A DNA stretch of 64,000 bases from Peptococcaceae bacterium BICA1-7 (GTDB lineage Bacteria; Bacillota; Desulfotomaculia; Desulfotomaculales; Desulfocucumaceae). The notes beneath the pieces were generated by a model. The model made no database searches. It saw only the letters and a program-made list of their open reading frames with translations, and had not been told where the DNA came from. Within the stretch, counting starts at the first letter, position 1. Each line of letters begins with the position of its first letter. The position numbers and the translations under genes are program-made. Where the stretch lies: contig JUEB01000001.1 in the NCBI GenBank assembly GCA_000802095.1, forward strand, positions 186,001 to 250,000, read 5' to 3'. Below are positions 4,672-39,714 of the stretch, piece after piece.

Positions 4672-5349
4672 TCAAATAATCTCTTCAGAAGAAATCACAG
4701 CCTCCTCTTCGCTGAGAACAACTTTCGATGGCCAAACAGCCTCCCTCACCCTCCCCTCGATCTCCCCGGCAAGCTCCGGATTGCCTTTCAAAAACTGCCG
4801 CACGTTCTCCCGGCCCTGGCCCAGCCTGGTTTCGCCATATGAGTACCAGGCCCCGGACTTCTCCAGTATGCCGCACTGGTCCCCCAGGTCCATAAGGCAC
4901 ACTTCCCTGGAAATACCCTCACCATAATAAAGCTCAACTTCAGCCGTTTTAAAAGGCGGGGCCACTTTGTTTTTGGTTACCTTTATCTTCACCCGGGTCC
5001 CGATATTGTCAGTGCCGTTGTTTTTTATATCCTGGGACTTGGTGATCGAAAGCCTTACCGAGCTGTAAAACTTGAGGGCCCGGCCGCCAGGCGTTACCTC
5101 CGGGTTTCCGTACACCACCCCGACCTTTTCCCTGATCTGATTGATAGATATGACCAGGGTCCTGGATTTGCTGGCCACCGCCGTCAGCTTCCTCGTGGTC
5201 TGGGACATCAGCCGGGCCTGGAGGCCAACGTGGGCATCCCCCATCTCCCCGTCAATTTCTGCCCGGGGCGCCAGGGCGGCCACACTGTCCACCACCACCA
5301 CACCGACAGCCCCGCTGCCGATAAGGGTGTCTGCAATCTCAAGGGCGTG
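4672..5349 (-). pseudogene. recA: 5'-deleted recA copy
   Basis: The frame matches the intact RecA at 14039-15082 from [12 protein letters not shown] to near the end, with few substitutions and an extended acidic tail ([13 protein letters not shown]). The first ~140 residues, including the Walker A site, are missing. Homology stops abruptly near 5349, where the sequence switches into an integrase-like fragment. It cannot make a functional recombinase, but the high identity to the intact copy implies recent duplication or recombination. Confidence 0.85.
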
Positions 5350-13061: not shown

Positions 13062-13332
13062 TTTTCCGCAACCCCCTGAATTAATACTTAGCTTGTATTT
13101 ATTGGTAAAAAACCTATACTAATATTAAACAGTCAATACACTATATGGTATGAGTTTAGGGTTGCAATAACATGGGCCTCAAGTCCTATTTGTAAATAGA
13201 TTCCCTTCTTTAGTCAGCAGATTTAACGCGGAGAAATGATTCTAGGCATTCGTATCTCCCTTACCAACATCCAGGTAAACTGCCGCCACTGCCGGCGTAG
13301 AGCAGATAAAAGAAAAAAAGAGCAGCCTGCTC

Positions 13333-13580
13333 ATGGGCGCCCCCTCTTTCTGCGGCTGGCGAATAACATCATACTTTGACTCTTTAATGGTGGTCTCCAG
13401 GTCAAATATCTCTTTAGCCCTACAGCTTTCAAGTATCCCCTCGGCATAATAAAGACTTTTGCCGGCATGAAGGGCATACTTAAACTTGTCTTCCGGGAAC
13501 AGTTCCAGACAGGGCGTAAGAAATCCACCCCCATGACGGTGGCGGCCAGGCCGACGGATTTAAGAAGGGCACTGACCCGT
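13333..13580 (-). pseudogene. Degenerate 3' end of a replication-initiator-like gene
   Basis: On the minus strand the DNA matches the last ~80 codons of the gene at 19717-20742, covering the counterparts of LLKSAGLAATDIEVDF, SLYYTEGILESW and IKESKYDIIHQPQKEG. A frame change splits the match between frames, and substitutions are frequent. No 5' part is present. It sits next to a recA remnant. Confidence 0.75.
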
Positions 13581-13635
13581 TTGCTGTCCACAACCTCCCT
13601 GTCCTGTCCCAATCTTATTAAGGTCACGATTTTTC

Positions 13636-13716
13636 CAGTTTGCCGCACTGGTCACCCAGGTCCCTAAGCCCGAATACCCTCGCCATAATAGAGCTTACCT
13701 CTACTGTCTTAAAGGG
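13636..13716 (-). pseudogene. recA: Short recA remnant
   Basis: About 80 bp resemble the recA segment encoding VELYYGEG through [11 protein letters not shown] in the intact copy, with a small internal deletion. It lies on the same strand as the intact recA and immediately beside the initiator remnant. It has no coding value and is the third recA-derived sequence in 11 kb. Confidence 0.65.
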
Positions 13717-14038: not shown

Positions 14039-15082
14039 TTAACTCTGCTCTACTTCACTGGGCACAACTTTCGAAGGCCAAACAACCTCCCTCACCCGCC
14101 CCTCGATCTCCCCGGCCAGTTCCGGATGGCCCTTCAGAAACTGCCGAACATTCTCCCGGCCCTGGCCCAGCCTGGTTTCTCCGTATGAGTACCAGGCCCC
14201 GGACTTCTCCAATATGCCGCACTGGTCCCCCAGGTCCATAAGGCAAACTTCCCTGGAAATCCCCTCGCCATAATAAAGCTCTACCTCGGTCGTTTTAAAA
14301 GGCGGGGCCACCTTGTTTTTGGTTACCTTTATCTTCACCCGGGTCCCGATAATGTCCGTTCCGTTGTTTTTTATGTCCTGGTGCCTGGTGACCGAAAGCC
14401 TTACCGAGCTGTAAAATTTAAGGGCCCGGCCGCCAGGCGTTACTTCCGGGTTTCCGTACACCACCCCGACCTTTTCCCTGATCTGATTGATAAATATGAC
14501 CAGAGTCCTGGACTTGCTGGCCACCGCAGTCAGCTTTCTCATGGCCTGGGACATAAGCCGGGCCTGGAGGCCGACGTGGGCGTCGCCCATCTCCCCGTCA
14601 ATCTCTGCCCGGGGCACCAGGGCGGCCACGCTGTCCACAACCACCACGCCGACAGCCCCGCTGCCGATAAGGGTATCGGCTATCTCAAGGGCCTGTTCTC
14701 CGGAGTCTGGCTGGGAGACAAGCAAGTCGTCAATGTTTACCCCCAGCCTTCTGGCATAAAGCGGGTCCAGGGCGTGCTCGGCGTCTATGAAGGCGGCGAT
14801 GCCGCCGGCGTTCTGCACCGAGGCGATAACGTGCAGGGCCACGGTGGTTTTCCCGGACGATTCGGGGCCGTATACCTCAACGATCCGGCCACAGGGCATG
14901 CCCCCCACCCCCAGGGCCACATCCAGGAGCAGTATCCCGGTGGAAACAGCCTCAACGTTAGCCGCAGCCCCCTTCTCCCCCAGGCGCATAAGCGCCCCTT
15001 TGCCGAACTTCTTTTCGATTTCGGACAGGGTCCGGCTTAGCGCACCCTCTTTATCAAAGCTTTCTTCTTTTGCCCTGGCCAT
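14039..15082 (-). CDS. recA: RecA recombinase, intact
   Basis: This 347-residue RecA is full length. It has Walker A GPESSGKT (72-79), the conserved [11 protein letters not shown], Walker B-type [10 protein letters not shown] and the L2 loop region [20 protein letters not shown]. RecA forms filaments on single-stranded DNA for strand exchange and triggers LexA self-cleavage. ATG at 15082 is chosen because GGGGGTG lies just upstream; an upstream TTG at 15097 would overlap it. A consensus promoter with a LexA box precedes the gene. Two recA-derived pseudogenes nearby indicate that the locus has been duplicated. Whether it is the host's only recA cannot be judged here. Confidence 0.95.
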
Positions 15083-15149: not shown

Positions 15150-15280
15150 TGGTGGGTAGGTTCTCTTTATCATGGTATTTTTTAGCTGTACTGGCATAAA
15201 TAAGAGGAATATTTCTTCAATTGGCGAAAAGACAGATTACAATTACTGGTTATATTGGGTTTCCAGAGGAGGTTCTTAAT

Positions 15281-18094
15281 TTGCGGAAAAAATTAATAAA
15301 TTATATATTAACATTCGTTCTTGCGGCCATTTTCATTATGCCCTTCCCCGCTAACGGCGCTGGGGAAAAGATCACCCCGGACAACTCCGGACGGATAAGC
15401 ATGCTGGCCCGCCTGGGCCAGGGCATCATACGCCAGGCAGCATACTCCCCCGACGGCAGGCTGCTGGCCGTGGCTGCTTCTACTGGCATTGCCCTTTACG
15501 ACCCGGTGACCTCTGACGCAACCGGTTTTATTAATACACCCTCGTGGGTGGAGTCTATCTCCTTTAGCCCGGACGGGTCTACCATAGCCGCCGGTCTGAG
15601 GGACGGCGCCGTATGCCTGTATAACATCTCTGACGGCAGCAGACTATTGGCCATGAAGGGCCCTTCCGGCAGAGTATACGGAGTTTCCTTCAGCCCCGAC
15701 GGAGCCATCCTGGCCTCCGGGTCGGAGGACGGGACAGTGCGACTGTGGGATTCCTCTGACGGGAAGCCGTTACGAACACTTGAAACGCTATACAGCACTC
15801 CGGTTAACAGTATTGCCTTCAGCCCGGACGGAACTTCGCTGGCCTCGGCTTCCAGCCAAACAGTACAACTGTGGCGTGTTTCCGATGGCCTGCAAATAAG
15901 GGAGATGGCCTGCGGGTCCAGCAGCAGCCCGGTGTTAAGCGTGGCCTTCAGCCCTGACGGGTCCACCCTGGCCTGTGGAGGCCATCTGGAGGGCAGCCTA
16001 TACCTATTTAGTGTCCGGGACGGGGCAATCCTACATACTCTTAAGTATCCCGGTGAAATTACAGATAATCTGGCTTTCAGCCCGGACGGCTCCACCCTGG
16101 CCACCGGATCTTATGACAAATCAGTACAGATTTGGAGATTATCGGACGGCAGCCTTCTTTCCTCCCTGGAAGGACACACCGGCCCTGTAAAAAGCGTAGC
16201 CTTCTCCCCGGACGGCTCCACCCTGGCCTCGGCCTCTGAAGACGGGACCGTGCGCCTGTGGCCTGTCGCCGAGAGCACACCCCCGCTAATGCTGAAAGGT
16301 AATGGGGAACAAATAATGAGCGCCTCCTTCAGCCCGAACAAATCCACCCTGGCAGCCGGCACCGCAGGAAATACCGTTTTTCTTTGGAATACCTCTGACG
16401 GAGTTTTGCGGTACACTCTTTCGGGCCACACCGGCGTAGTGGGTTGCACAGCCTTCAGCCCGGACGGCTCCACACTGGCCTCCGGGTCACAGGACAATAC
16501 CATTCGCTTATGGGGGGCAGCCGACGGCAAATTACTGCGGGTGCTTTCAGGCCACTCCCAGCCATTATCGTGTATTGCCTTCAGCTCTGACGGATCTCTA
16601 TTGGTCTCGGGGGCAAATGACAACACCGTGCGACTGTGGCGGGCTGCCGATGGCAAATTCCTGCGCCAGTTGGAGGGGCACACCGAGCCTGTATCATGTG
16701 TGGCCTTCAGCCTGGACGGCTCCATACTGGCCTCCGGGTCACAGGACAACACAGTGCGCCTCTGGAATACTTTTGACGGCAGTCTGGTCAGTGTCCTGGA
16801 GGGCCACCAGGGCCCTGTACAAAGTGTTGCTTTCAGCCCTGACGGAATAATCATGGCATCAGCCGCAAGCGATGGGACTGTCCTACTGCGGCTTGTGTCC
16901 GACGGAACACTCCTGCATAAACTGACTCACTCTGGCGCGGTTAAAAATTTGTCCTTCATTCCAGACGGGTCCACCCTGGCCACCGACACTTACGACGGCA
17001 CGGTAAGACTCTGGAAGGTTTCCGACGGCAGCCTCCTGCAAAAGTACGGTCATTCCACACCAACACCGGTATCGGGCATCACCTTCAACCCTGACAGCAG
17101 CGTCAACCTGGCATCGTCTTTGGGCCCCGCTGCGGGAACGTTGCAACTGCGAAAGGTATCAGACAACTGCCGTGTAATTAGGGTTGGGGGCCACTCCGGT
17201 GCCGTCTCTGCAGCTTCCTTCAGCCCGGACGGGTTCACTTTGGCAACCGGCTCCTGGGACAGCACCTTGCTCCTCTGGCGCATCCCTGACGGCGTTCTTC
17301 TAAAAACCCTGGAAGGATATACTTATGGAATATCAAACGTCGCCTTCAGCCCCGACGGATCGACCCTGGCCTCCGGAAGCGGCGTACCCTCGGCGGCCGG
17401 AGTTGGTATACTGAACGTGTGGAGTGTGCCGGATGGCCAATTGCATTATTCAATAAGTGACCGTGGAGCGGATAATGTCTCCTTCAGCCCGGATGGGTCT
17501 ATCCTGGCCTCCAGCAGCTCAAAAAGTGAAGCCGTTACCTTGTGGCGGACCTCTGACGGCTCACCACTGCACAGGCTGGAATGCGGTTACGGCCCGAAAA
17601 TTATTACTTTCTCACCGGATGGCTCCACCCTGGCCGCAGCCACCCCTGACAATACAATACATTTTTGGCGGTTATCTGACGGCAGCCCAATGCAAACAAT
17701 AGCCACTCCCGGTATGCCGCTACTTGATTTTGCACTGCTCCGGAACGGGTCTGTCCTGTCTGTCTGTGTCGAAGATATAAGCACGGATATCAGGTACTTT
17801 ACAATCAGCCATGCCAGTGAAATATTAAGCCGGCTTGAAGGCTGCCCTGATAATTTATATTGCATGGGATTTAGCCCGGATGGAGCCCTTCTGTCCACCG
17901 GGCACACAGACGGGAAAGTATTCCTCTGGCGGACCTCCGACGGAAAGCAGCTGCAAGTACTGGAAGGTCACCATGCAGTGGTGAGAAAAGTCTCTTTCAA
18001 CCAAGACGGAGCCACCCTGGCCTCCGCCTCCGATGACGGCACGGTGTGTCTTTGGGGTATATCCGATTTTCAGGATACTATAATTACACACTGA
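15281..18094 (+). CDS. Secreted 21-repeat WD40 protein
   Basis: TTG at 15281 is chosen because GAGGAGG ends 8 bp upstream and it directly begins a signal peptide (RKKLINYILTFVLAAIFIM ... NGAG). The mature part is built from about 21 consecutive WD40 repeats with the recurring phrase FSPDGSTLASGS and ending in RLW. Twenty-one repeats would fold as three seven-bladed propellers. WD40 propellers are protein-interaction scaffolds with no catalytic activity. No other domain or wall anchor is visible. It is divergent from recA and followed by a radical SAM gene 165 bp away; a functional link is not evident. Confidence 0.9.
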   Translation: MRKKLINYILTFVLAAIFIMPFPANGAGEKITPDNSGRISMLARLGQGIIRQAAYSPDGRLLAVAASTGIALYDPVTSDATGFINTPSWVESISFSPDGSTIAAGLRDGAVCLYNISDGSRLLAMKGPSGRVYGVSFSPDGAILASGSEDGTVRLWDSSDGKPLRTLETLYSTPVNSIAFSPDGTSLASASSQTVQLWRVSDGLQIREMACGSSSSPVLSVAFSPDGSTLACGGHLEGSLYLFSVRDGAILHTLKYPGEITDNLAFSPDGSTLATGSYDKSVQIWRLSDGSLLSSLEGHTGPVKSVAFSPDGSTLASASEDGTVRLWPVAESTPPLMLKGNGEQIMSASFSPNKSTLAAGTAGNTVFLWNTSDGVLRYTLSGHTGVVGCTAFSPDGSTLASGSQDNTIRLWGAADGKLLRVLSGHSQPLSCIAFSSDGSLLVSGANDNTVRLWRAADGKFLRQLEGHTEPVSCVAFSLDGSILASGSQDNTVRLWNTFDGSLVSVLEGHQGPVQSVAFSPDGIIMASAASDGTVLLRLVSDGTLLHKLTHSGAVKNLSFIPDGSTLATDTYDGTVRLWKVSDGSLLQKYGHSTPTPVSGITFNPDSSVNLASSLGPAAGTLQLRKVSDNCRVIRVGGHSGAVSAASFSPDGFTLATGSWDSTLLLWRIPDGVLLKTLEGYTYGISNVAFSPDGSTLASGSGVPSAAGVGILNVWSVPDGQLHYSISDRGADNVSFSPDGSILASSSSKSEAVTLWRTSDGSPLHRLECGYGPKIITFSPDGSTLAAATPDNTIHFWRLSDGSPMQTIATPGMPLLDFALLRNGSVLSVCVEDISTDIRYFTISHASEILSRLEGCPDNLYCMGFSPDGALLSTGHTDGKVFLWRTSDGKQLQVLEGHHAVVRKVSFNQDGATLASASDDGTVCLWGISDFQDTIITH

Positions 18095-19716: not shown

Positions 19717-20742
19717 CTACGTTTTCCTCCGCACCGAAACCAGTCTACTTCTAGGAACCCCCTCTTTTTGCGGCTGGTGGATAATATCATACTTGGATTC
19801 TTTAATTGCGCTCTCCAGGTCAAATATTTCTTTTGATCGCCAGCTCTCAAGTATCCCCTCGGTGTAATAAAGGCTTTTGTCGGCAAAAACTGTTTTCTGC
19901 AGGGCATACTTCACCATATCGTCCGGGAACAGCTTCAGCCAGGGAACTAGAAAATCGACCTCTATGTCAGTGGCAGCCAGGCCGGCAGACTTAAGCAGGG
20001 CTCTGGCCCGCTCGTGAGGGGCCGCTTTTTCATTTCCGGCGCTTTGTATATCTTTTTTATTCTGCATGGATGTTTGTCTGTATGTCTGTATGCTTGCTAT
20101 ATTATCTAATTCGGCTGAAGCCTGCTTCACCCGCCCCTGCAAATCCTGCAGGGGCGGGTGCAGATTCTGCAGGGGGGTTGCCGTTTCCAGTCCAGTATTA
20201 ACAGGGCCGGCAAAATCTGCAGGGGGGGCTGCAATATTTGCAGAGGGGGGTGCGAAATCTGCAGGGGGGGCTGCAGATATTGCAGGGGGTATGATTTCTG
20301 TGTTTCCCGGTTCAGCTTTTAACTCATCTTTTGATGCTGATTTATCATACAATATTCCATCATCAAATTTTTCTCCGTTATTTTCTGCAATAAGAAGCTG
20401 CTCCATTTTTTCAAACAATGGTGTGAGGTCATAGGCGTTGGTCAGCTGGCCGGTGCCGTCAAATCTTGGAGTAACTATAAGATAACCTTTTTCAGTTAAT
20501 GAATTTTTATAAGTTCGGAGAGTCCTTTCACTTATCCCGGAGGTTTTGGCCATTTCTTTTATGGACGGAGTGGTGCCGTCCTCCCGGGTGGTCCACCTGA
20601 AGGTCAGAATATTACAGACGAAAAAAGTCTCCTGGGGGGTGAGATCCAGCTCCTTTTGATATCTGAAAAGGACCGTGGGTATAGGGGCCACTCCCCGGCT
20701 GGCGATGACTTTTCCGTAAAGTTCATAAAACTTTTGCGACAT
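19717..20742 (-). CDS. Replication-initiator-like winged-helix protein
   Basis: This 341-residue protein has an N-terminal winged helix-turn-helix (LTPQETFFVCNILTFRW; SIKEMAKTSGISERTLRTYK), a low-complexity Pro/Ala middle (PPADFAPPSANIAAPPADF) and a separate C-terminal module (ARALLKSAGLAATDIEVDFL). The arrangement recalls Gram-positive plasmid and ICE initiators, where the middle of the gene carries origin iterons, as the DNA here also does. AAGGAG precedes the ATG. The upstream region holds two palindromes, a hairpin with a T-run and iterons, suggesting tight control. A 3' remnant of a paralogue lies at 13.3 kb. The initiator role is inference. Confidence 0.6.
   Translation of the reverse strand: MSQKFYELYGKVIASRGVAPIPTVLFRYQKELDLTPQETFFVCNILTFRWTTREDGTTPSIKEMAKTSGISERTLRTYKNSLTEKGYLIVTPRFDGTGQLTNAYDLTPLFEKMEQLLIAENNGEKFDDGILYDKSASKDELKAEPGNTEIIPPAISAAPPADFAPPSANIAAPPADFAGPVNTGLETATPLQNLHPPLQDLQGRVKQASAELDNIASIQTYRQTSMQNKKDIQSAGNEKAAPHERARALLKSAGLAATDIEVDFLVPWLKLFPDDMVKYALQKTVFADKSLYYTEGILESWRSKEIFDLESAIKESKYDIIHQPQKEGVPRSRLVSVRRKT
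20130..20289 (+). repeat. G-rich direct repeats inside the initiator gene
   Basis: About six ~19-22 bp units of the form TGCA(G/A)AT-TCTGCAGGGGGG run through the middle of the gene, starting with a perfect 12-bp inverted repeat (CCCGCCCCTGCA, 5-bp loop, at 20130-20158). They encode the Pro/Ala-rich linker. Iterons inside the initiator gene are a known origin layout in RepA_N-type plasmids, so this is a candidate replication origin. Confidence 0.65.
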
Positions 20743-20769
20743 GCGATACAGTCTCCTTTCGTATAAAAG

Positions 20770-20783
20770 TTAACGCGCGTTAA
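20770..20783. promoter_or_regulatory. Palindromic operator, proximal copy
   Basis: TTAACGCGCGTTAA is a perfect 14-bp palindrome just upstream of the ribosome site of the initiator-like gene. A near-identical palindrome lies 133 bp further upstream. Paired sites of this sort suggest a repressor, perhaps the initiator itself. Confidence 0.6.
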
Positions 20784-20795
20784 TTTTTGCCATAT

Positions 20796-20825
20796 AAAAA
20801 AGAAAAACCGCTGGAAATGCGGTTT
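20796..20825 (-). terminator. Hairpin with T-run in the initiator leader
   Basis: On the minus strand AAACCGC and GCGGTTT form a 7-bp stem with a 7-base loop, followed by TTCTTTTTT. It is a good intrinsic terminator positioned between the upstream palindrome and the initiator start. It may end read-through from the FtsK operon or act as an attenuator of the initiator. Confidence 0.7.
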
Positions 20826-20902
20826 CGTAAAAGAATATTATGAAAGCTAAAAACTTTTATTAATTCTTAATGAGCCAGATTGCCAAGCACCAAAACTAAA
20901 AA

Positions 20903-20916
20903 TTAACGCACGTTAA
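20903..20916. promoter_or_regulatory. Palindromic operator, distal copy
   Basis: TTAACGCACGTTAA differs from the proximal palindrome at one base. A plausible minus-strand promoter (TTGGCA, 17 bp, TTAATA) lies between this copy and the hairpin. Confidence 0.55.
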
Positions 20917-20937
20917 CTTTCTTCCCTTACACAAAAA

Positions 20938-21050
20938 TCTGTTACCCAACTCTGTTACCCGGCTCTGTTACCCAATCTGTTACCGGGCGATTTCCTCTAT
21001 AAGGGGAAAACGTTTTCAGCCCCACGGGTAACAGTCAATCGGGTAACAGA
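20938..21050. repeat. Iteron cluster TCTGTTACCC
   Basis: Four direct copies of TCTGTTACC(C/G) start at 20938, 20951, 20964 and 20976, spaced 13, 13 and 12 bp. Two inverted copies (GGGTAACAG) start at 21026 and 21041. The cluster fills the gap between the initiator-like gene and the end of the FtsK gene. Such phased repeats are typical of plasmid origins or partition sites. Confidence 0.75.
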
Positions 21051-21064: not shown

Positions 21065-22993
21065 CTATAAATAATTTTTCAGTGTATTTTCTCCGGCAAC
21101 AATAAGATAGGGCTTTTTAGGCACCGGAGGGGCCTGAATCCATCCCTCCCGGATCAGTAGATCTATCAGTTCCATGACTCTTTCCTGTTTAATATTCATT
21201 CTCTCCCTCAAAGACCTTATGGAGGGAGCAGTTATCTGGTCCATTTCAGCCTCTACGGCATCCTGCCAGGCCTGGGCCATGATGATCTTAAACTTCCTTA
21301 TTTCCTCTGATTCAGCCTCAGGCGGATTCCCGTATTCAATACTCTCCCCACCGGGAAGTTCGCCGGAAACTTCCGGGAAGTCGGGCAACCTGACCATGTC
21401 CGGGCCGGGAGCAGCCCGAAGCTTACTGTTTTCCCCTGTTTCCCCTGCAGTATTATGCTGTTCTCTACCTTCTACAGCAGCTTCTGCAATATGAACGGGA
21501 TTAGTTTTATGCCCTGAGTTAACCCAGAAGTCCTTTATCTTTGACACCGCCAGGTCGGCATCATTATCGTTTGCTCCTATGCCCGGGCTCTGGAAACGGA
21601 CAAGGCCGGCGTGTCCCTCCAGTAGAGCTACTCCATCACCTTTTCCTCTTAACTTGAGATCTTGATCAACATTTAGCACCGTTCGGTAATCAGGCCCGCT
21701 GATCAGCTGGAATACCACTCTCGAAGGCAAATTGGATTTTATCACCCCTGTAATTACATCCACTGAAGGCCGCTGGGTGGCGACAATCATGTGTATGCCG
21801 GCAGCCCTGGCAAGCTGGGTGAGTCTTTGAATTAAAACCTCCACTTCTTTTCTTGCTGTAGACATCAGGTCCGCCAGCTCATCAATAACCCCGACAATAT
21901 AACCTATTGACCTGTCACCGGTCCGCTGCCAGTACTGCTGGATATTCTTTACCCCGGCCTGTTCGAAAATTGTGTACCGGCGCTCCATTTCTTTTACCAA
22001 AGACTCAAGGGCTGCCACGGCCTGCGCCGTTTCCGTGGCAACGGTGATGGTATGTGGAAAACCTCTATACTGACTCAGCTCCACCCTCTTGGGGTCGATC
22101 AATACCAGGCTTAAAACATCTGGTCCCCGGGAAAGCAGCAAGGTCACAAGAACCTCGTTGATGAACCAGCTCTTGCCGCTGCCGGTGGTGCCGGCCACCA
22201 GCAGGTGGCGGACGCTTACCAGATCAATCATAATGGGCTCGCCAATGTCATTTACACCTACCACCATGGGGAGCTCAGAACGGCCCAAGAATTCTTCGAA
22301 TTCCTCGGATTCAAGTATGGTACGAAGCACCACCGGCAGGCGGTTCTTATAAGCGATGATCAGAGAGGCCGATCCTGCATGCATGCCCGGGGTTACCTGC
22401 AAGGACTCAACTCCGAAGGCTGAGGCCAGGTCGCTGGTCATATGCTGCAGCCTGGTCAATCGCAGCCCGTCGGGTAACGATACAGTGACCCGGGCAGCTG
22501 CAGGGCCGCTTTGAACTGAAATAACCTCTATTCTTTCTCCTTCGTCTTTCAGAAGCCCGCAGCGGCGAAAGGCTCTGTTCACCCTCAGCGCGTAACCGGT
22601 TCCGGTTCTTTCCTCGGCAGCCTTTCTCACCCAGGCCGGAGGGTCCGGAAGTATTGACAAGGGTGGCAGCCCCTCTTTTAAAGGCCCCCTGGAGTCTATT
22701 TTATTAGCCGGCAGCTGGCTTACCTGACAGCCATCCAGGTAGTTTTTCATAATAGTGGCCACAGCTTCACATTTTTTAAAGAACCGCTCCCGGCGGTCCT
22801 TCCCAATCCAAAGCCATATATACACTACACTCCCCAGCCAGCATACAGCAGCAACTTTCCCGGCATGCCCGGCGCCGCTGCCGGCCGCGCTGGTGGCCAG
22901 GGCCCCTGCGGCCAGAACCAGGAGCAATCCCCTTTGAGCAAAGGAATGCTTATCAGCGCCGCCGCTTTGCTTTACGCTCCTTTTACTGCTCAA
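21065..22993 (-). CDS. FtsK/SpoIIIE-family DNA translocase
   Basis: This ~642-residue protein has two N-terminal membrane segments, a linker, and an FtsK motor with Walker A GTTGSGKS (~268) and Walker B VIDELADL (~368). The C-terminal DNA-binding winged helix (ITAPSIRSLRERMNIKQERV) resembles FtsK gamma. Chromosomal FtsK clears DNA at division; plasmid and ICE relatives pump DNA during conjugation or act as coupling proteins. Its place between an initiator and topB favours element maintenance or transfer. TTG at 22993 follows GGAGGGAGGGG by 5 bp; an in-frame ATG at 23020 would overlap topB more. It overlaps the topB stop. Confidence 0.85.
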   Translation of the reverse strand: MSSKRSVKQSGGADKHSFAQRGLLLVLAAGALATSAAGSGAGHAGKVAAVCWLGSVVYIWLWIGKDRRERFFKKCEAVATIMKNYLDGCQVSQLPANKIDSRGPLKEGLPPLSILPDPPAWVRKAAEERTGTGYALRVNRAFRRCGLLKDEGERIEVISVQSGPAAARVTVSLPDGLRLTRLQHMTSDLASAFGVESLQVTPGMHAGSASLIIAYKNRLPVVLRTILESEEFEEFLGRSELPMVVGVNDIGEPIMIDLVSVRHLLVAGTTGSGKSWFINEVLVTLLLSRGPDVLSLVLIDPKRVELSQYRGFPHTITVATETAQAVAALESLVKEMERRYTIFEQAGVKNIQQYWQRTGDRSIGYIVGVIDELADLMSTARKEVEVLIQRLTQLARAAGIHMIVATQRPSVDVITGVIKSNLPSRVVFQLISGPDYRTVLNVDQDLKLRGKGDGVALLEGHAGLVRFQSPGIGANDNDADLAVSKIKDFWVNSGHKTNPVHIAEAAVEGREQHNTAGETGENSKLRAAPGPDMVRLPDFPEVSGELPGGESIEYGNPPEAESEEIRKFKIIMAQAWQDAVEAEMDQITAPSIRSLRERMNIKQERVMELIDLLIREGWIQAPPVPKKPYLIVAGENTLKNYL

Positions 22994-24794
22994 CAGCGCC
23001 CCTCCCTCCGGCAGCCGCATTTACAACAGTCCTGACCATATCCTCTATATTTCTCATAAATATTTTGGCATCAGCTTTTCCCTGTTCAATTTCCCAAAGG
23101 AGTTCTTCCCACCGGACCGTTAACCGGGGACTCTTCAGATCTTCGGAAACCTGATCCACCAACTCCTCACCCTTTGCCGTCGGCGTCAGGCGTTTTCCAT
23201 CTCTTTGGACATAGCCCGATGAAATAAGCTTTTCAATTATGCCGGCCCGGGTTGCGGGAGTGCCCAGGCCCACTGAACCGAGTTCTTTTGTACTGCCCGC
23301 ATTTTTCATGGCCTTTAGCAGCGAGGCATCGGTAAATCTCCCGGGAGGCCTTGTTTTCTTTTCCTCCACACTTAAAGAAGCAAGGTTTAATTGCATACCT
23401 TCATTTAGTGCGGCTAATGCGGGAAGGGTATTTTTGTCATCCACGGTATTGGAATCCCAGCTTTCTTCGTTATAGACCTCTTCCCAGCCAGGTTTAATCA
23501 CCTGAGACCCTTTGGCATGGAAATGGTGACCTTTGACGGATATGAATATATTGGAATGCCGGTGTACTGCAGGGGGGTAAAACACAGCCATAAACCGACG
23601 CGCCACCAGGTCATAAACACTTCTTTCCTCAGTGCTTAATCTATCTCCAGGAACGGCGCAGGCAGGCAGAATGGCATGGTGGTCGGTAACACCGGCGTCA
23701 TTTACTATAGCCTCAGGCAAGGGAAGGCCGGCTGCCTTCCGGGCAAGATCTTTATAAGTCTCCACTTTGGCCAATGCAGACAGCCTGTCCATGAGAGTGC
23801 CGGCAAGAAGCCCGGTAATATATCTGCTATCGGTCCTGGGGTACGTGATCAGTTTCTTTCTCTCATACAGAACCTGTGCAATTTCAAGGGTATGGGCTGC
23901 GGTCGTACCCAGAAGGCGGTTGGCATCCTGCTGCAGATCGCCGAGGTTGTATAGCGGGGGCGGGGGTACATCAGAATCCTTTGTCTCAAAAGACGTAACG
24001 ATCCCGGCTTTTTCTCCCGATAGAGCACTTTTGATGTTTTCCGCCTCATCCAGTGTCATAAATACGCTTTTTCCATTCTCAGCATCGGTCCAGAGAGCGC
24101 GGAACACCTCACCTTCCGGGGTAACAAATTGCCCCCATAACTCCCAGTAAACCTTTGTAACAAAGCTCCTTATTCCTTTTTCCCTTTCCACCAGCAGGGC
24201 CAGGGCCGGAGTCTGAACCCGGCCAACGGTCATTTTCTCTTTCTTGAAAAGGGTATAAGCCCTGGTGGCATTCATTCCCACCAGCCAGTCAGCCCGTGCC
24301 CGGGCCTGGGCGGCAGCAAAAAGGTAATCATAAAGGGAGCCGTCCTTAAGCTTCGAAAAGGCCCTTTTAATGGCCTCCGGAGTATTCTCTGACAGCCATA
24401 GCCGCTTATAAGGCTTACGGCATTCTGCCAGGAAGTATATGTACCTAAAAATTAATTCTCCCTCCCGGCCAGCGTCACAGGCATTAACCACCAAATTGAC
24501 ATCAGATCTTTTAAATAAAGGTTTTACTTTGCGGAAGTGCTGCTTTTTTGAATCAATAGGCTTTATAAAGAAGTCTTCCGGAATAATAGGCAAGGTGTTC
24601 AGGCTCCATTTTTTTAACCCAGGGTGGTAATCCTCCGGGGCCGCCAGCTCGGCCAGGTGTCCTACAGCCCAGGTAATAATGTAGTCTCCGTTTTCCAGGT
24701 ACCCGTCCTTTTTGGTAAACTTGCCCAGCACCTCAGCTATGTCCCTGGCCACTCCCGGCTTCTCGGCAATAATTAAAGTCCTTTTGCCTGACAA
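22983..24794 (-). CDS. topB: DNA topoisomerase III
   Basis: This 603-residue type IA topoisomerase has a TOPRIM domain (NACDAGREGELIF, ~104-116), the motif VGRVQTPALALLVERE and the active-site tyrosine in ITYPRTDSRYI (~316). It relaxes or decatenates DNA by single-strand passage. Topoisomerase III genes are common on conjugative elements, where they resolve replication intermediates. It overlaps the EAL gene upstream by 22 bp and the FtsK gene downstream, so the three form one operon. Length matches the short, plasmid-type TopB class without extra zinc fingers. Confidence 0.93.
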   Translation of the reverse strand: MSGKRTLIIAEKPGVARDIAEVLGKFTKKDGYLENGDYIITWAVGHLAELAAPEDYHPGLKKWSLNTLPIIPEDFFIKPIDSKKQHFRKVKPLFKRSDVNLVVNACDAGREGELIFRYIYFLAECRKPYKRLWLSENTPEAIKRAFSKLKDGSLYDYLFAAAQARARADWLVGMNATRAYTLFKKEKMTVGRVQTPALALLVEREKGIRSFVTKVYWELWGQFVTPEGEVFRALWTDAENGKSVFMTLDEAENIKSALSGEKAGIVTSFETKDSDVPPPPLYNLGDLQQDANRLLGTTAAHTLEIAQVLYERKKLITYPRTDSRYITGLLAGTLMDRLSALAKVETYKDLARKAAGLPLPEAIVNDAGVTDHHAILPACAVPGDRLSTEERSVYDLVARRFMAVFYPPAVHRHSNIFISVKGHHFHAKGSQVIKPGWEEVYNEESWDSNTVDDKNTLPALAALNEGMQLNLASLSVEEKKTRPPGRFTDASLLKAMKNAGSTKELGSVGLGTPATRAGIIEKLISSGYVQRDGKRLTPTAKGEELVDQVSEDLKSPRLTVRWEELLWEIEQGKADAKIFMRNIEDMVRTVVNAAAGGRGAVEQ

Positions 24795-25534
24795 AAGTTA
24801 TCAGCTCCCTTTTGAATCTCTTTCAGCTGTACAGGCCTGGAAAAGAAAAAACCCTGTCCCAGGGTTACGCCAAGCTTTTTCATCATGGCCAGCTCATATG
24901 CTGTTTCAATGCCTTCGGCTATTACAGAGCATTTAATTTCGGCGCCCAGCGCCACCAGGTGTTTTACGATGGCCTGGTACTGTTCATCAACGGCAGCCCC
25001 TGATACTATCGGCCTGTCTATTTTAATGAAGTCAGGCCTTAGCTCGGCCACGCTGCGCAGCCGGTCATACCCCGATCCCACATCGTCGATGGCTATCAAA
25101 AAACCCCTTTCCTTCAACATTTTGCAGGTACGGCTGACATGCATGAAATCCTGAACCTTTACATGTTCAGTAATTTCAAATACAATTCTTCCCGGAAACG
25201 AATCTATCAGAGATAGATCTCTTTTAATCCCGGATATCTCGGCCATCAATGACGGGTTGGTATTTATAAACACCTTCTTATCTATTGGAATTTGTCTGGC
25301 GGCAGCCATGGCATTCTCTAAACAGGCCGCTTCCAATACCTTTAACAAACCGTAATTACTGGCGCATTTAAAAAGGCTGCCTGCAGAGTGTAAATTTCCA
25401 GCCGGTCCTCTTATCAGCGCTTCGTACCCCATGGGCAGTACTGAAGAAAGGTCTACTATGGGCTGTATCAAGGTAGTCAGTTGCCTGTTGTTGAGAATCT
25501 GCGTTAAAGCGCTTTTCCTTGACCGTAACATCAC
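24773..25534 (-). CDS. EAL-domain c-di-GMP phosphodiesterase
   Basis: This 253-residue protein is a stand-alone EAL domain. The catalytic signature is complete: YEALIRG, the NTNPSL asparagine, FEITEH, AIDDVGSGY, FIKIDRP, AEGIET and LGQGFFF. Such enzymes linearise c-di-GMP in the cytoplasm and lower pilus or adhesion programmes. No sensor domain is attached. It is translationally coupled to topB by overlap. A GGDEF cyclase lies 10 kb downstream in the same strand's pilus cluster, so the element could set c-di-GMP in both directions. Confidence 0.9.
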   Translation of the reverse strand: MMLRSRKSALTQILNNRQLTTLIQPIVDLSSVLPMGYEALIRGPAGNLHSAGSLFKCASNYGLLKVLEAACLENAMAAARQIPIDKKVFINTNPSLMAEISGIKRDLSLIDSFPGRIVFEITEHVKVQDFMHVSRTCKMLKERGFLIAIDDVGSGYDRLRSVAELRPDFIKIDRPIVSGAAVDEQYQAIVKHLVALGAEIKCSVIAEGIETAYELAMMKKLGVTLGQGFFFSRPVQLKEIQKGADNFCQAKGL

Positions 25535-30370: not shown

Positions 30371-30913
30371 TTAGATTTGGTCTACCGGCCTGCTGATCAG
30401 CTCCGGCCCGGCTGTGACGTGGCAGTACATGGTGGTTTCATCCGGCAGGCCGGCCAGTTTTGAAAGGGCTCCGATTTTTACCGGAAAGCTGATAATGGCC
30501 ACTACCGACACCTGGCTGACAGTTTCGCTGTAGCCGGTGAATGTATATGTAAACGGAATTTCTTCCTGCTTAACCACCTTAAAATAATCAACCTGCACCG
30601 GACCCGAATTAAGCATCGACCCCGCCAACGGATTCAGGCTGTGGTCCAGCAGCAGATTTATTTTAAGGGTATCGTAGAAGGTCTGGGCTGCCCTGGACTC
30701 GTCTATGACCAGACTGGCATTTTTAAGCTCTTCCTCATCCACCTGGGCGGCTGCGCTTCTCACCGCCAGGTCCAGCTTGTTTTTTACAGCTACCTTAATG
30801 CAAAAATGCTCACCAACATCGGTAACCAGGGCCGCTACTACAAAAAAACATATGATCATTAAGAGGGCCAGTATATATGCTGACCCTCTCTGGTCACTTA
30901 AAAATTTAATCAC
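30371..30913 (-). CDS. TadE/TadG-like pseudopilin
   Basis: This 180-residue protein has the leader pattern SDQRGSAYILALLMIICFFVV, a short positively charged head, then Gly-Ser and one hydrophobic helix. The ~150-residue remainder is extracellular and lacks repeats. This is typical of TadE/TadG-type minor pilins that prime or cap Tad pili. It overlaps the next upstream gene by 4 bp (ATGA), so the two are co-translated. Confidence 0.65.
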   Translation of the reverse strand: MIKFLSDQRGSAYILALLMIICFFVVAALVTDVGEHFCIKVAVKNKLDLAVRSAAAQVDEEELKNASLVIDESRAAQTFYDTLKINLLLDHSLNPLAGSMLNSGPVQVDYFKVVKQEEIPFTYTFTGYSETVSQVSVVAIISFPVKIGALSKLAGLPDETTMYCHVTAGPELISRPVDQI

Positions 30914-31395
30914 TCTATGAACACCTCGCTTTGGGCGGCGGCGTTAACCTTGAGACGCAAGCTTTCTTCGCTGACCACATAGCTCATCAGGCTGTCGATC
31001 AAAAAGAATTTGAAGCGCCAGGGATAGCTGATATTCACATTTATGTACGAGCCCCTTTGCACCGGTGTGTCCATATCGGTGCCGTAAATATACACTGTGT
31101 CGTTATCCAGGGCGCCCGGAGGAGAGTCACTGCCCGCATCATAATTGTATCCCTGGCTATTCACTGTCCAGTCAGATACCTTGGCGGCCAGTTGGGCCCT
31201 CACCTCACTGGTGAACTGCCCCCTGGTGGCGGCAGCTTCAGCAGTATTGCAGACATAGTAGTTTATCACCGACCAGTTATACATGAGATAGCCCATTTCA
31301 ATAACGAAGCAAAAAATCATAAACAGGAGGGGGATTACTATCAGCGCCTCTATGAAGACCTGACCCCTCCTGTCTTTATGTAACCTCTTAAACAT
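30910..31395 (-). CDS. TadE-family pseudopilin
   Basis: This 161-residue protein starts with KDRRGQVFIEALIVIPLLFMIFCF: a basic head, Gly-Gln cleavage point and Glu at +5 within a single helix, the TadE signature. The body is a globular extracellular domain. Its ATG shares one base with the stop of the upstream prepilin gene (TAATG). Confidence 0.75.
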   Translation of the reverse strand: MFKRLHKDRRGQVFIEALIVIPLLFMIFCFVIEMGYLMYNWSVINYYVCNTAEAAATRGQFTSEVRAQLAAKVSDWTVNSQGYNYDAGSDSPPGALDNDTVYIYGTDMDTPVQRGSYINVNISYPWRFKFFLIDSLMSYVVSEESLRLKVNAAAQSEVFIE

Positions 31396-31571
31396 TAATT
31401 TCCCACCTGTTCGACCTCGGTTTTTATATCACCAATCTTGTCGCCCAGGGCTGCGCCAAGTTCGTTCATATGGGAAGCAACCACAAAGACTACACCGATT
31501 ATGAGAAGGGCCATTTCCACGAAGACACTGCCCTCTTGGCCACGGTGAAGTCTTGCTAAAAATACTTTCAA
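31395..31571 (-). CDS. 58-residue class III prepilin-like protein
   Basis: TTG at 31571 has GAAGGTG 7 bp upstream. The peptide has a basic head ending RGQEG, then SVFVEMALLIIGVVFVV with Glu at +5 after the glycine, and a short amphipathic tail. This matches Flp-type prepilins processed by a TadV/CpaA peptidase such as that at 39821. It closely resembles the next prepilin at 31608-31811. Confidence 0.7.
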   Translation of the reverse strand: MKVFLARLHRGQEGSVFVEMALLIIGVVFVVASHMNELGAALGDKIGDIKTEVEQVGN

Positions 31572-31607
31572 GGAGTATCACCTTCTTCCCGGTTATCTTT
31601 TGCCGGA

Positions 31608-31811
31608 TTAATCTAATGAGGGAACCGCAACGCCCTGGATTTGCGTGGAAATGTTGTTGTACTTAGGCACAATACCATCGTTGGCCAGCCCTGAGGCAGC
31701 ATTGAAAACCACGAAGGCTACACCGATCAGTACGAGGGCCATTTCAACGAAGTAGCTGCCCCCCTGGTCCTCGTGCAGCGCAACCATAACCTTTTTTGCT
31801 TTTTTAGTCAT
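31608..31811 (-). CDS. 67-residue class III prepilin-like protein
   Basis: The sequence HEDQGGSYFVEMALVLIGVAFVV has the glycine cleavage point, Glu at +5 and one long hydrophobic helix. AGGAGG precedes the ATG. It is the second of three tiny prepilin-like genes in a row. Confidence 0.72.
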   Translation of the reverse strand: MTKKAKKVMVALHEDQGGSYFVEMALVLIGVAFVVFNAASGLANDGIVPKYNNISTQIQGVAVPSLD

Positions 31812-31848
31812 TCAAAAAACCTCCTTTTTTACGATTTGCAACTTATGC

Positions 31849-31998
31849 CTATTCCTTTTCCGATGGCCCGGGCTTTTTCTTTTTCCACTTTAAATATGAC
31901 AGCAACAGGCCCGCCCCGATAAAGGCAAATCCCACAACTTCCAGGCTCATCCCTCCTTTTTGGTTTTTGTGCAGTAACCACAGGTATTCTTTTACCAC
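31849..31998 (-). CDS. 49-residue prepilin-like membrane peptide
   Basis: GTG at 31998 (GGGGG upstream) opens a peptide with HKNQKGGMSLEVVGFAFIGAGLLL and a very basic tail (KWKKKKPG). The glycine-then-helix layout is like its two neighbours, though Glu is at +4. It lies 12 bp after the TadC-like gene. It could equally be a simple one-pass membrane peptide. Confidence 0.55.
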   Translation of the reverse strand: MVKEYLWLLHKNQKGGMSLEVVGFAFIGAGLLLSYLKWKKKKPGPSEKE

Positions 31999-32010
31999 GG
32001 TATTAACCCC

Positions 32011-32808
32011 CTATTTAATAGTGTTTAACTGGTTGATTATAGAACCCACCATAGGGATAATAAACATCATGATAAATATCACTATCAGTACTCCAGGCAA
32101 GAGCGACATTAAAACAGGCTGAATCTTAATCCACCTCTTTATTTTGGAAGCCTTTCTCTGCCTGGACACTTTCGAGTAATTGGTCAGTATCTCGCTGATA
32201 TCGGCCCCGGTGCTCTGCTCTACGGCGATGATCCGGGCAAAGTCCTTCATTTCAGCCACGTTGCAGCGTCTGGCGAAATTATCGACGGCCTCTATCAGAC
32301 CCACCAGCTCCATCTCAGCTGACAGCAGCGCCAGTTCGCGGCCAAGCACTCCTTTATAGGACCTGGCCACCACTTTAAAGGCGTCATAATAGCCCACTGC
32401 CCTGGCATAGATCTTTACCTGCTCCACCATCAGTGGAAAGGCTGCCTGTATAGCCTCCTTTCTCCTTTTCTCAAAAAAGCTTAAGAGCATTTCCGGAGCT
32501 TTTGCTGCCATAGGCAGCGCCAGAAGAAATAAGGCCCCCCCTTTCTGCCCTCCCGCCAGCAGTGCTGCTCCGGCAAGAAAAATAAGCAGCAGGACAGACC
32601 TTTTGCCGGCAGTTACCAATTCCGCCGAAAATGGAATTCTTAAGGCCTCCAGCCTTTTTCTCAGTGATTTCAGATCTTCGGCTGATGCGCCGTAGCGGCC
32701 AGCCCATTCAAATACCTGGAGCGCCCCCGGCAATTTAACCCTTCTGAGGCACCAGGCCATTACGGCAATGCCCACCAATACCGGGGGATACATTATTGAC
32801 GGAATCAT
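32011..32808 (-). CDS. tadC: TadC-like inner-membrane platform protein (set 1)
   Basis: This 265-residue type II secretion F-domain protein has N-terminal helices, a cytoplasmic helical core (FPLMVEQVKIYARAVGY; SAEMELVGLIEAVDNFARR) and a C-terminal hydrophobic pair (SLLPGVLIVIFIMMFIIPM). TadB/TadC pairs anchor the pilus or pseudopilus ATPase. It overlaps the TadB-like gene by 4 bp. Confidence 0.8.
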   Translation of the reverse strand: MIPSIMYPPVLVGIAVMAWCLRRVKLPGALQVFEWAGRYGASAEDLKSLRKRLEALRIPFSAELVTAGKRSVLLLIFLAGAALLAGGQKGGALFLLALPMAAKAPEMLLSFFEKRRKEAIQAAFPLMVEQVKIYARAVGYYDAFKVVARSYKGVLGRELALLSAEMELVGLIEAVDNFARRCNVAEMKDFARIIAVEQSTGADISEILTNYSKVSRQRKASKIKRWIKIQPVLMSLLPGVLIVIFIMMFIIPMVGSIINQLNTIK

Positions 32809-33749
32809 ACTTCTTCCAGCACCCCTTTCCTGCCGTCAAAATACCAGCAAAGGTACTCGGCGATAACCAGCAGGGAGACCAGCATATGGCCCCGGCTTGT
32901 TTCTGTGAATACTCTGTGGGCATCAGCGGATCCGGTAAGCATCCAGAGGAAGACAGCCGGCAGGGCGGCCATGAATATGTATATAACAGCCTTTTTGCCT
33001 CTGGTCTCGTTGACCAGCTCCTCCCGCAGGTCCATCCTCTCCCTGACCACTTCAGACATCATTTTAATTACTTCGCGGGTGTCGCTGCCGTACTGCCTGG
33101 AGAGGACGATACCGTGAACAAAGGTGTTTATGTCTATGTTGTCAAGATTGGCGGCAAACTCTAAAAGACATTCATCAAAATCCCGGTTGGTATTGACGTT
33201 CAATATCAGGTTTTCCAGCTCTATTTTTAGAGGCTGGGGGGTTGCCGGTATGACCCTTTCTATGGCCTGCTTGAGGTTGTCGGACACCTGGCACAGTTCG
33301 GCCAGCAGCTGCAGCATCAGCTGGGCCTGCAACTCTATTACGCTTTTAATTCTCTTGTGATACAGCCTGTCCACCAGCTGGTGAGCAAAGAGCACCCACA
33401 ATACTACTGATAATATGGCCAGGAGCTGGTTTGACATAAGCTTTAAGCTTACGACCGCAAGTACGGCGGAGATAGCCGTGATACCAGTCAGAAAGGCGCT
33501 ATAGCTGAAGGGCATGCCTAATTTTTTGAGCATAAAGGCGGTGTCTTTAGTGACCTGGTGCCTGGAGAAGAATAAGTCACTCCGGACTGCTTCGTGTACC
33601 AGCAAGTCTTTAAGCTTTGTAAAGGATTTGCTGAACATCTGAATGTTTCTGGCTGCAAAGACTGCCATAATAGCTGAGGCAATAAAAAGCGCCGGTATGA
33701 AAATCTCCGGCACAGCCAGCAGGACATACAGTTTTTCCCGGCATATCAT
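32805..33749 (-). CDS. tadB: TadB-like inner-membrane platform protein (set 1)
   Basis: This 314-residue F-domain protein has two central helices (TAISAVLAVVSLKLM; LLAILSVVLWVLFA), a helical cytoplasmic core (QLMLQLLAELCQVSDNLKQAIER; QYGSDTREVIKMMSEVVRERMDL) and C-terminal helices. It overlaps both the TadA upstream and TadC downstream by 4 bp, giving a tightly coupled TadA-TadB-TadC block. Confidence 0.82.
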   Translation of the reverse strand: MICREKLYVLLAVPEIFIPALFIASAIMAVFAARNIQMFSKSFTKLKDLLVHEAVRSDLFFSRHQVTKDTAFMLKKLGMPFSYSAFLTGITAISAVLAVVSLKLMSNQLLAILSVVLWVLFAHQLVDRLYHKRIKSVIELQAQLMLQLLAELCQVSDNLKQAIERVIPATPQPLKIELENLILNVNTNRDFDECLLEFAANLDNIDINTFVHGIVLSRQYGSDTREVIKMMSEVVRERMDLREELVNETRGKKAVIYIFMAALPAVFLWMLTGSADAHRVFTETSRGHMLVSLLVIAEYLCWYFDGRKGVLEEV

Positions 33750-34972
33750 ACCAGTGACACCACTCCCCTGGCCTGCTTTGGCGCACTAAAAGGCCTTATC
33801 TGCGGCAGCTTTTCTTCCCCCAGCTCTTCCTGCAGCCGGTCCAGCAGTTCACCGGTGAGGCTGTTAAGGCATTCATGCCTGTTTTCTCTCCTGTTGAACC
33901 GGTATATTTCCCTGAAGTGAGGTTTACCGTTACTGTCTGTCAGCTCATTAACCTCTGAAATGCACCATTTGCCGTCCTTGTACTTTTTGATGTAGATGGT
34001 CAGGTCTATGGCGCTTACTATATGACGGCCCAGTTCCTCATCAGTTATGCCGGAGGCCGGTTTGGCGGCCCTCAATATCCTCTGGAAAAGGTTCATCCTG
34101 GCGTTATTGCTGTGGCCTGTTGACATTGATCCGTAGTGCCCGGTGTCCATGGCCAGCAGGAGGTAATATGTTTCATCCCCCCTGAATTCACCCAGTATTA
34201 TCCGGTCCGGGTCCATACGCAGGGAGTTTTCTATAAGGTCCTTGATACTGGCCTTTTTCGATTCCTGCAGGGCCACCACGCCCTCCAGCCCCAGCTCAAG
34301 GGTGTCCTCCACGGTTATAACCCGCTCATCCCCCGGAATGTACCCACACAATAGCCTGGCAAAAGTGGTTTTGCCGCACCCGGTTACTCCGGCGATAACC
34401 ATATTGCACCCGGACCTTACAACGTACTGGAAGAACTGCAGCATTTCTTCACTGAGAAACCCCTGGGATAGAAGCTCCTGTTCTGTATACACCTTCTTGG
34501 GGAATTTCCTGATGGATATGGCGGGAGTAGTTGTATTAGGGTATATGACCCCGTTCAGACGCATTCCTCCGGGCAATTGGACGTTGACCAAGGGATTGCT
34601 GAAATCTATTTTCCGACCGGCCTTCTGCACCACGTTGTGCAGTATCTTCATAACGTCCTCGCTGCTGTTGAACCTGATGCCAGTTTTCTCTTTCCTGCCG
34701 CCGCTTCTCTTTATCTCCATTTCCAGGTTGGTGACAAATATATCGGTCACCTCCGGGTCCCGCATATATGGCCCCAGCTCCTTGTAGCCTATCAGCTGGT
34801 CTATGGTATACTGCTCTATATCCTGGTCTTCCCGGCCCAATAGGGTTCTTATTTCCTGTTTTATGACCTGTTCTTTCTTCTCCCAGCCACCTTCTTCGCT
34901 ATCCAAAAAGAGCTTGCGGTGCTTTTTTATCACTGCTTCCTGTACTTCCCCAACGAGCTTATGTCTATCCAT
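33746..34972 (-). CDS. tadA: TadA/CpaF-type secretion ATPase (set 1)
   Basis: This ~408-residue ATPase has Walker A GVTGCGKTT (~194), the Asp box RVITVEDTLEL, Walker B RIILGEFRGDE and His box TGHYGSMSTGHS, all hallmarks of the VirB11/TadA/GspE superfamily. It would power pilus assembly or, as a VirB11 analogue, transfer. ATG at 34972 has GAGGGGGG upstream; a longer frame to 35020 overlaps the CpaB-like stop. A second TadA is fused to a ParA-like domain at 42802. Confidence 0.9.
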   Translation of the reverse strand: MDRHKLVGEVQEAVIKKHRKLFLDSEEGGWEKKEQVIKQEIRTLLGREDQDIEQYTIDQLIGYKELGPYMRDPEVTDIFVTNLEMEIKRSGGRKEKTGIRFNSSEDVMKILHNVVQKAGRKIDFSNPLVNVQLPGGMRLNGVIYPNTTTPAISIRKFPKKVYTEQELLSQGFLSEEMLQFFQYVVRSGCNMVIAGVTGCGKTTFARLLCGYIPGDERVITVEDTLELGLEGVVALQESKKASIKDLIENSLRMDPDRIILGEFRGDETYYLLLAMDTGHYGSMSTGHSNNARMNLFQRILRAAKPASGITDEELGRHIVSAIDLTIYIKKYKDGKWCISEVNELTDSNGKPHFREIYRFNRRENRHECLNSLTGELLDRLQEELGEEKLPQIRPFSAPKQARGVVSLV

Positions 34973-34991
34973 GCTTATATAGCCCCCCTCT

Positions 34992-35705
34992 TTATCTGGT
35001 TTTGGCGGGTTGTTTGTCACCGTAATTCAGCAGCTGCAGCAAATTGTCCAACTGTCCGGGGTCATATATATCCCCGCTTAGCTCAGCTCCTTCAGCCTCC
35101 GGGAGCAGCCACAGCTCTTTTGACCGGGCCTTCCCGAAAAATATAGGGCCCACCTGGTCCCATTTGAGCGCCAGGGTAATGCTGTCACCGCTGTTTGCCG
35201 AGACAGCGTTCTTAATCTGTTCTACTGTCCCAGACAGGTTTATGTTTGTATCCGTAACAGACAATATCTTAATTCCTTTACCCACTACCTGGGGATTGCC
35301 GCCTTCCAGTATGGCTACCACCGTGATTGTTTCTCCGGCCTTGATATTTTGAGGCCACCTGGCCTCGTTTTTGTTAAGGGTAAGCCAGGTTTCATCCTGG
35401 CCAACACTGTTTTTAGTTTCGCTGGACAGGTCTGCGGTTATCTTTTGGGATAGTATGGGCTCCTGGTTATACAGGTTTACCATGGCGTATTTTCCTATTA
35501 CCTGACCCGGGACGGTTAAAGCCAATTCGTGCATATCCCTCTTGGCCAGGGTGACATACCCTATGTCAGCCTGGCCAATCACTGCGCCGGCAGGAATATC
35601 TTTGTTGGGCGCTACAACCTTTACCGGCATGTACATCCGGTATAAGGCAAAAAATACCGATACAGCAGCCGCAATACTCAGCAGCACCGCCACCCAGAAG
35701 CTCAT
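34992..35705 (-). CDS. CpaB/RcpC-like SAF-domain pilus assembly protein (set 1)
   Basis: This 237-residue protein has one N-terminal membrane helix, then a SAF-type domain (VVAPNKDIPAGAVIGQADIGYVT; VIGKYAMVNLYNQEPIL). CpaB proteins help build the Tad secretion path outside the membrane. It lies immediately upstream of the TadA gene. A second CpaB is at 45062. Confidence 0.78.
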   Translation of the reverse strand: MSFWVAVLLSIAAAVSVFFALYRMYMPVKVVAPNKDIPAGAVIGQADIGYVTLAKRDMHELALTVPGQVIGKYAMVNLYNQEPILSQKITADLSSETKNSVGQDETWLTLNKNEARWPQNIKAGETITVVAILEGGNPQVVGKGIKILSVTDTNINLSGTVEQIKNAVSANSGDSITLALKWDQVGPIFFGKARSKELWLLPEAEGAELSGDIYDPGQLDNLLQLLNYGDKQPAKTR

Positions 35706-35748
35706 GTTTTTTGCCGGTAGTTTGAGCCTGTTTATTTTTCCTCACCCC

Positions 35749-37325: not shown

Positions 37326-37330
37326 CTACT

Positions 37331-38041: not shown

Positions 38042-38053
38042 GAAAAGCTCCCC

Positions 38054-38876: not shown

Positions 38877-38892
38877 GAGATTTCACCCCCTC

Positions 38893-39697: not shown

Positions 39698-39714
39698 TGC
39701 CTTACACCCCCTTT

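Follow-up and report, generated by a model that had tools for sequence, protein, structure and literature searches.

Several described systems bear on the locus analysed here. The TraB/TraA-clt system of Streptomyces is the precedent for an FtsK-like translocase that loads at repeats (PMC3583192, PMC12857230, PMC3218068): the C-terminal winged helix of TraB binds clt repeats, the repeats vary between plasmids, and no relaxase is involved (PMC3583192, PMC12857230). KOPS steer FtsK towards dif, with their orientation determining the direction of translocation (PMC2680272). TcpA, the coupling protein of pCW3, resembles FtsK and has been suggested to move double-stranded DNA (PMC12857230). In Bacillus thuringiensis, the tip locus of pXO16 encodes a T4SS that comprises two ATPases and a cell-wall hydrolase, while neither a relaxase nor an oriT has been identified (PMC9673590). 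Among plasmid initiators, the RepA_N protein of pSK41 resembles DnaD and has four Rep boxes in the central part of its gene, and the initiator of pPR9 has an N-terminal PF13730 (HTH_36) domain and no PF06970 (PMC5703833).

Here, we propose that the genome of Peptococcaceae bacterium BICA1-7 probably contains an integrated conjugative element with two adjacent sites, namely a vegetative origin inside its initiator gene and a clt-like transfer site linked to ftsK. The proposal is built on the anatomy of the locus, its conservation, the linkage of a repeat array to ftsK and the covariation of the array repeat with a winged helix. The stretch analysed (hereafter, the window) is 64,000 nucleotides long, and in it the minus strand reads, in order, an ftsK-like gene (ending at 21065), the array, a palindrome, a terminator-like hairpin, a second palindrome and rep. 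The gene order recurs in a genome of the same genus (G027, locus L001/L003), which has 82% identity in Rep and 93% in FtsK and retains the whole intergenic region: six array sites, both palindromes and the hairpin. The initial annotation had listed intragenic repeats, upstream repeats, two palindromes and a leader hairpin, and all four are present about where it placed them.

The rep gene (19717-20742, minus strand) encodes a DnaD-like replication initiator of 341 aa, with a DnaD_N/HTH_36 region, a linker and DnaB_2. Its Pfam matches to DnaD_N, HTH_36 and DnaB_2 lie above their cut-offs (E 8e-9, 1e-6 and 1e-5), PF06970 (RepA_N) is absent among its matches at E 0.1, and its alignment to Bacillus subtilis DnaD (8ojj) is weak but colinear. 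The structure model of Rep is poor (pLDDT 49), and a search of a phage collection for DnaD-like relatives returned none. The linker is where the intragenic repeats sit. These are 21-bp C/G-rich dyads (TGCAnnnnnTGCA with C runs) at 20131-20295 (minus strand), forming a 41-nt repeat family (D1, 20137-20290) with neighbouring copies 21 bp apart; they are read in two frames, which encode APPADFA-like and PPLQNLH-like peptides, in the window and in G027 alike. The TGCA/C-run motif occurs 10 times in the window rep against 1.2 expected, and seven times in the orthologous rep against 0.9 expected, counts reached in neither case by any of 2000 synonymous-codon shuffles. At the level of sequence, the linker repeats are conserved beyond the coding need of the protein.

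Distant Rep homologues have other dyads at the corresponding place. In G061-G065 the middle of the gene holds three GGGGGTGTGAAA..TTTCACACCCC dyads, whose 46-bp spacing breaks the frame, and the homologue in G066 has two longer copies. Initiator-like genes of other elements likewise contain mid-gene 21-bp, 23-bp or G-rich dyads. Comparison across the family thus makes an origin inside the initiator-like gene, whose activity we infer, a well-supported reading; the intragenic dyads mark the probable vegetative origin. A DnaD_N/HTH_36 gene is also borne by the circular plasmid pAP1, which may hint at autonomous replication from rep. In the mechanism that we propose, the N-terminal winged helix of Rep would bind the dyads that lie in the linker-coding part of its own gene, and its DnaB_2-like C-terminal domain would recruit host replication proteins. 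A decayed C-terminal copy of the initiator gene lies about 6 kb from the intact one (13331-13648, minus strand; 74% identity over residues 264-335).

Between rep and the array are two palindromes, GTTAACGCGCGTTAA at 20769-20783, between the leader hairpin and the rep start, and GTTAACGTGCGTTAA (minus reading) at 20903-20917; the palindrome sequence GTTAACGNNCGTTAA has no further match in the 4.75-Mb genome, and both palindromes are found nowhere else there. The rep leader also contains an intrinsic-terminator-like hairpin (20804-20826, minus strand; dG -10.2 kcal/mol, z -2.3) with TCTTTTTT after it. A sigma-70 scan gave a single match, on the plus strand, no more than chance gives. Local control of rep transcription would fit both the two palindromes and the hairpin, and is their probable role. 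A further perfect palindrome, GAAAACGTTTTC, adjoins the array core at 21006-21017 and is imperfect in G027.

The upstream array is located just past the stop codon of the ftsK-like gene. Its right arm (20938-20985, minus strand) has four direct sites of the GGGTAACAGA type, which take the form TCTGTTACC(C/G) and have successive spacings of 13, 13 and 12 bp; its left arm (21025-21050, plus strand) has two inverted GGGTAACAG sites. The two and the four copies point away from each other around a core, CCCCTTATAGAGG (20994-21006, minus strand), that is recognisable in most other arrays. The initial annotation had reported 13-bp-spaced repeats upstream of rep; the four direct copies are indeed there, but its tally was short of the two inverted copies. 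A count of six sites was reached in none of 400 dinucleotide shuffles. The exact TCTGTTACCC occurs six times genome-wide, four of them in the window array; a KOPS-like distribution was considered and rejected, the motif not being scattered over the genome. The array repeat is unrelated in sequence to the intragenic repeats.

The array recurs with ftsK. FtsK was searched in 113 genomes of the order and then by a profile built from eight FtsKs, and a distinct FtsK family was found in nine genomes of the order, with two such elements in the window's own genome. A tenth match (G002) was far weaker and of the chromosomal FtsK/SpoIIIE type; against 398 genomes of the phylum, the profile found outside the order only chromosomal-type FtsK/SpoIIIE, at this same weaker level. 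An array directly follows each complete ftsK at nine loci, the window included, and on two Paenibacillus plasmids, one of them a complete plasmid (G090 was left out because its contig ends before the ftsK stop). The repeat differs from element to element: GGGTAACAG in the window and G027, GGGAACAGT in the second element of the same genome, GGGAAATGATC in G070, GGGAATACAGG in G066, GGGAACGAAT in G048, GGGTAGAGG in G058, GGGAAC in G031 and GAGATCACTT in G079. The spacing (mostly 12-14 bp) and the outward orientation are retained, the copies flanking and facing away from a CCCTTATAG-like core that is weaker in G031 and G079. For six loci none of 400 shuffles reached the observed count, and for G058 one did; with five and nine of 400, respectively, the G031 and G079 arrays are modestly above chance. 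Downstream of chromosomal ftsK genes, 0 of 26 controls reach five copies. The gene after the array is rep in the window, an initiator-like gene in G058, topB in the second element and in G070, an integrase in G066, and small ORFs elsewhere; hence the array tracks ftsK and not rep. Judged from this placement, the upstream array belongs to ftsK and is separate from the intragenic repeats.

On the Paenibacillus side, arrays of the same type are found on P. polymyxa pAP1 and on the P. cellulosilyticus megaplasmid; P. amylolyticus pY5S7-2 has only three weak direct repeats after ftsK, and P. bovis has no array directly after it. FtsK relatives in a virus collection (80 loci, 73 tested) are mostly without arrays, and L087 (IMGVR_UViG_3300034159_000051) alone looks convincing, a 129-kb contig where TGTCTCAT (two copies) and GTGAGACA (three copies), at 11-12-bp spacing, follow an ftsK-like gene. 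The second element of the window's genome (L043, G000:C15:165000-184999), which is related and has its own ftsK array, has a 3-kb stretch in common with the window element at 91% DNA identity, away from ftsK. In L026 (3110-3475), L029 (2976-3140) and L030 (2950-3130) the arrays lie between near-identical direct repeats (e.g. CTCCCAACTTTTCAGAACCAAAA), with a tyrosine recombinase following in L026. Near the G031 element, a Cas1-like protein is encoded (L041, 13002-13949; Pfam E 7e-15).

The ftsK-like gene (21065-23020, minus strand) encodes a DNA translocase of 651 aa with a C-terminal winged helix like that of FtsK-gamma. Its motor matches Pfam FtsK_SpoIIIE at E 3.5e-48 and solved FtsK structures at E ~1e-60, and hhalign matched its C-terminus to chromosomal FtsK-gamma at 92%, with E 7e-7 for one single comparison. 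The model of the C-terminus (pLDDT 88) resembles Pseudomonas aeruginosa FtsK-gamma, both free and KOPS-bound (2ve8/2ve9; Z 8.5/8.3, rmsd 1.7-1.9 A), the superposition on 2ve8 having Z 8.5 and rmsd 1.7 over 63/65. The winged helix is a common fold and unrelated regulators also reach Z 8-10, so the fold match supports, but does not prove, kinship of the predicted C-terminus with FtsK-gamma. Across 10 elements, a small sample with motifs anchored by hand, the distance between repeats is correlated with the distance between winged helices (r 0.33, p 0.02; partial 0.42, p 0.008 with motor distance removed) and not with that between FtsK motors (r -0.08).

The elements have a common backbone of FtsK, TopB, an M23/SLT hydrolase, an EAL protein, a VirB4-like ATPase, two membrane proteins and a YdjM protein. 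In the window, a topoisomerase III-type gene (topB, 22983-24794; Pfam Topoisom_bac E 4e-115, common to seven loci) and an EAL-domain gene (24773-25534; Pfam E 6e-47, common to six loci) come next, and a transfer module consists of an M23 peptidase, a VirB1-like cell-wall hydrolase (47908-49017; Pfam E 5e-25, common to seven loci), a VirB4-like ATPase (49056-51020; TraG P-loop E 3e-11) and two membrane proteins (two ORFs, 51024-54423; without a Pfam match, kept in six loci), all on the minus strand. Of 868 plasmid records that match the VirB4-like protein, 810 are typed conjugative. Inside the element are two Tad-like pilus clusters (30371-46000, minus strand; TadE, T2SSE, T2SSF, CpaB/SAF and prepilin peptidase), and pAP1 likewise bears Tad-type genes.

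Could the two sets of repeats nevertheless be one thing, as the initial annotation had it, two iteron arrays of a single plasmid origin under its own control, with the DnaD-like Rep binding every repeat? In the window both sets flank or lie in rep, the whole arrangement is kept in G027, and in G058 too the array is followed by an initiator-like gene. We consider it distinctly unlikely, however. The two motifs are unrelated, in G061-G065 the Rep homologues contain intragenic dyads but their flanks, as far as examined, hold no GTTACC array, and in the second element, G070, G066 and G048 the array adjoins ftsK with no initiator gene beside it. Its recurrence there, with topB, an integrase or a small ORF as the next gene, counts against a joint origin and led us to reject, as the main reading, binding of the upstream array by Rep; of the origin with self-control, the part that survives is the origin within the initiator-like gene, to which the array does not belong. 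More unlikely again is that the array is a site of recombination, resolution or partition, be it attP-like arm sites, a dif-like site or a centromere. Two arms about a core do resemble attP, three arrays lie between direct repeats and a tyrosine recombinase follows in G066. In the window, by contrast, no recombinase adjoins the array, which is internal to the integrated element and not split at its ends, on which ground attP was rejected for it; moreover, KOPS guide FtsK to dif (PMC2680272), but the array sites face outward from the core.

A conventional oriT, with an unrecognised relaxase nicking the CCCTTATA-like core, the iterons binding a relaxosome protein and FtsK as coupling protein, is also unlikely, if less so than either of these. 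The oriT of Gram-positive ICEs is commonly found beside the coupling-protein gene, although the two-armed layout of the array differs from most oriTs. The element has a T4SS, a core can be made out in most arrays, and pCW3 gives a precedent in which oriT is bound by TcpK, a winged-helix protein distinct from the coupling protein (PMC6137059). Against this, the elements have no relaxase-like gene group in common, a Pfam scan of the larger ORFs of the window element found no relaxase, and a genome-wide search for PF03432 and PF13814 relaxases gave no match on any array-bearing contig. Furthermore, MOB-suite types pAP1 and the three Paenibacillus plasmids related to it as non-mobilizable, and the gene table of pAP1, itself incomplete, lists no relaxase. 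A relaxase of an unrecognised type is possible in these elements, its absence being judged from the window Pfam scan, the two families and the MOB-suite typing.

The array reads best as a clt-like loading site for a double-stranded DNA pump of the TraB/FtsK type. How might such a site work? The FtsK-gamma-like winged helix would bind the GGGTAACAGA sites on either side of the CCCCTTATAGAGG core and, so bound, would load outward-facing FtsK hexamers. As the orientation of KOPS sets the direction of FtsK, motors loaded at the array would travel away from the core, and, once excised, the element would be fed by FtsK, in double-stranded form, into its own T4SS. In its present state, the window element lies on a 312-kb contig that also bears chromosomal genes, and hence is integrated and not a free plasmid; element ends or att repeats were looked for and none found. 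A serine recombinase is broken into two ORFs (57555-58167, minus strand), which suggests that the recombinase of the element itself is disrupted. With this split recombinase the element looks partly degraded and may no longer transfer. Elsewhere in the window, a 643-bp stretch of recA is present in two copies (4707-5349 and 14054-14696; 91% identity) with a 2339-aa ORF between them, and beside recA is a 957-aa ORF (15221-18094, plus strand) that contains numerous WD40-like repeats and is strongly repetitive in its DNA.

We tentatively extend the proposal to a class, which we regard as quite possible: in Bacillota and relatives, T4SS elements would conjugate double-stranded DNA without a relaxase, by means of an FtsK pump whose loading sites, two-armed arrays specific to each element, co-evolve with its winged helix. 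If FtsK does load at the array, plasmids and integrated elements that at present count as non-mobilizable may be self-transmissible, their transfer sites being the arrays, which could be found just after ftsK as divergent repeats spaced 12-13 bp apart, and the elements would offer a model for pXO16-like systems, in which no relaxase or oriT has been found. It would also provide a short cis site with which to test if double-stranded DNA passes through any T4SS, together with natural pairs of repeat and winged helix for studying how FtsK-gamma chooses its sequence.

Compared with the described systems, Rep is like the RepA_N protein of pSK41 and the pPR9 initiator in having an N-terminal winged helix, a linker encoded by the origin repeats and a DnaD-like C-terminal domain. 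It resembles pPR9 in having HTH_36 (PF13730) without PF06970, the lack of which sets it apart from RepA_N, as do its C/G-rich dyads. The array and its translocase are like FtsK-KOPS and SpoIIIE-SRS in the gamma-like winged helix and in most repeats starting GGGNA, as in KOPS (GGGNAGGG); the G079 array alone starts GAGA, like SRS (GAGAAGGG). Unlike those systems, the array is clustered at one site of a mobile element, has element-specific repeats and is directed outward, not towards dif. The T4SS with a cell-wall hydrolase and no recognised relaxase is like the pXO16 tip locus as described. In pCW3, unlike here, the oriT-binding winged helix is a protein separate from TcpA. As in TraB/TraA-clt of Streptomyces plasmids and AICEs, an FtsK-like translocase has a C-terminal winged helix and short repeats adjoining its gene (PMC3583192, PMC12857230). 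The present site differs in its two outward arms, its CCCTTATA-like core and its regular 12-14-bp spacing, the hosts are of Bacillota type, and a T4SS is also encoded. Because of this T4SS module we do not file the element as a member of the TraB-clt group, but propose that it may work like one.
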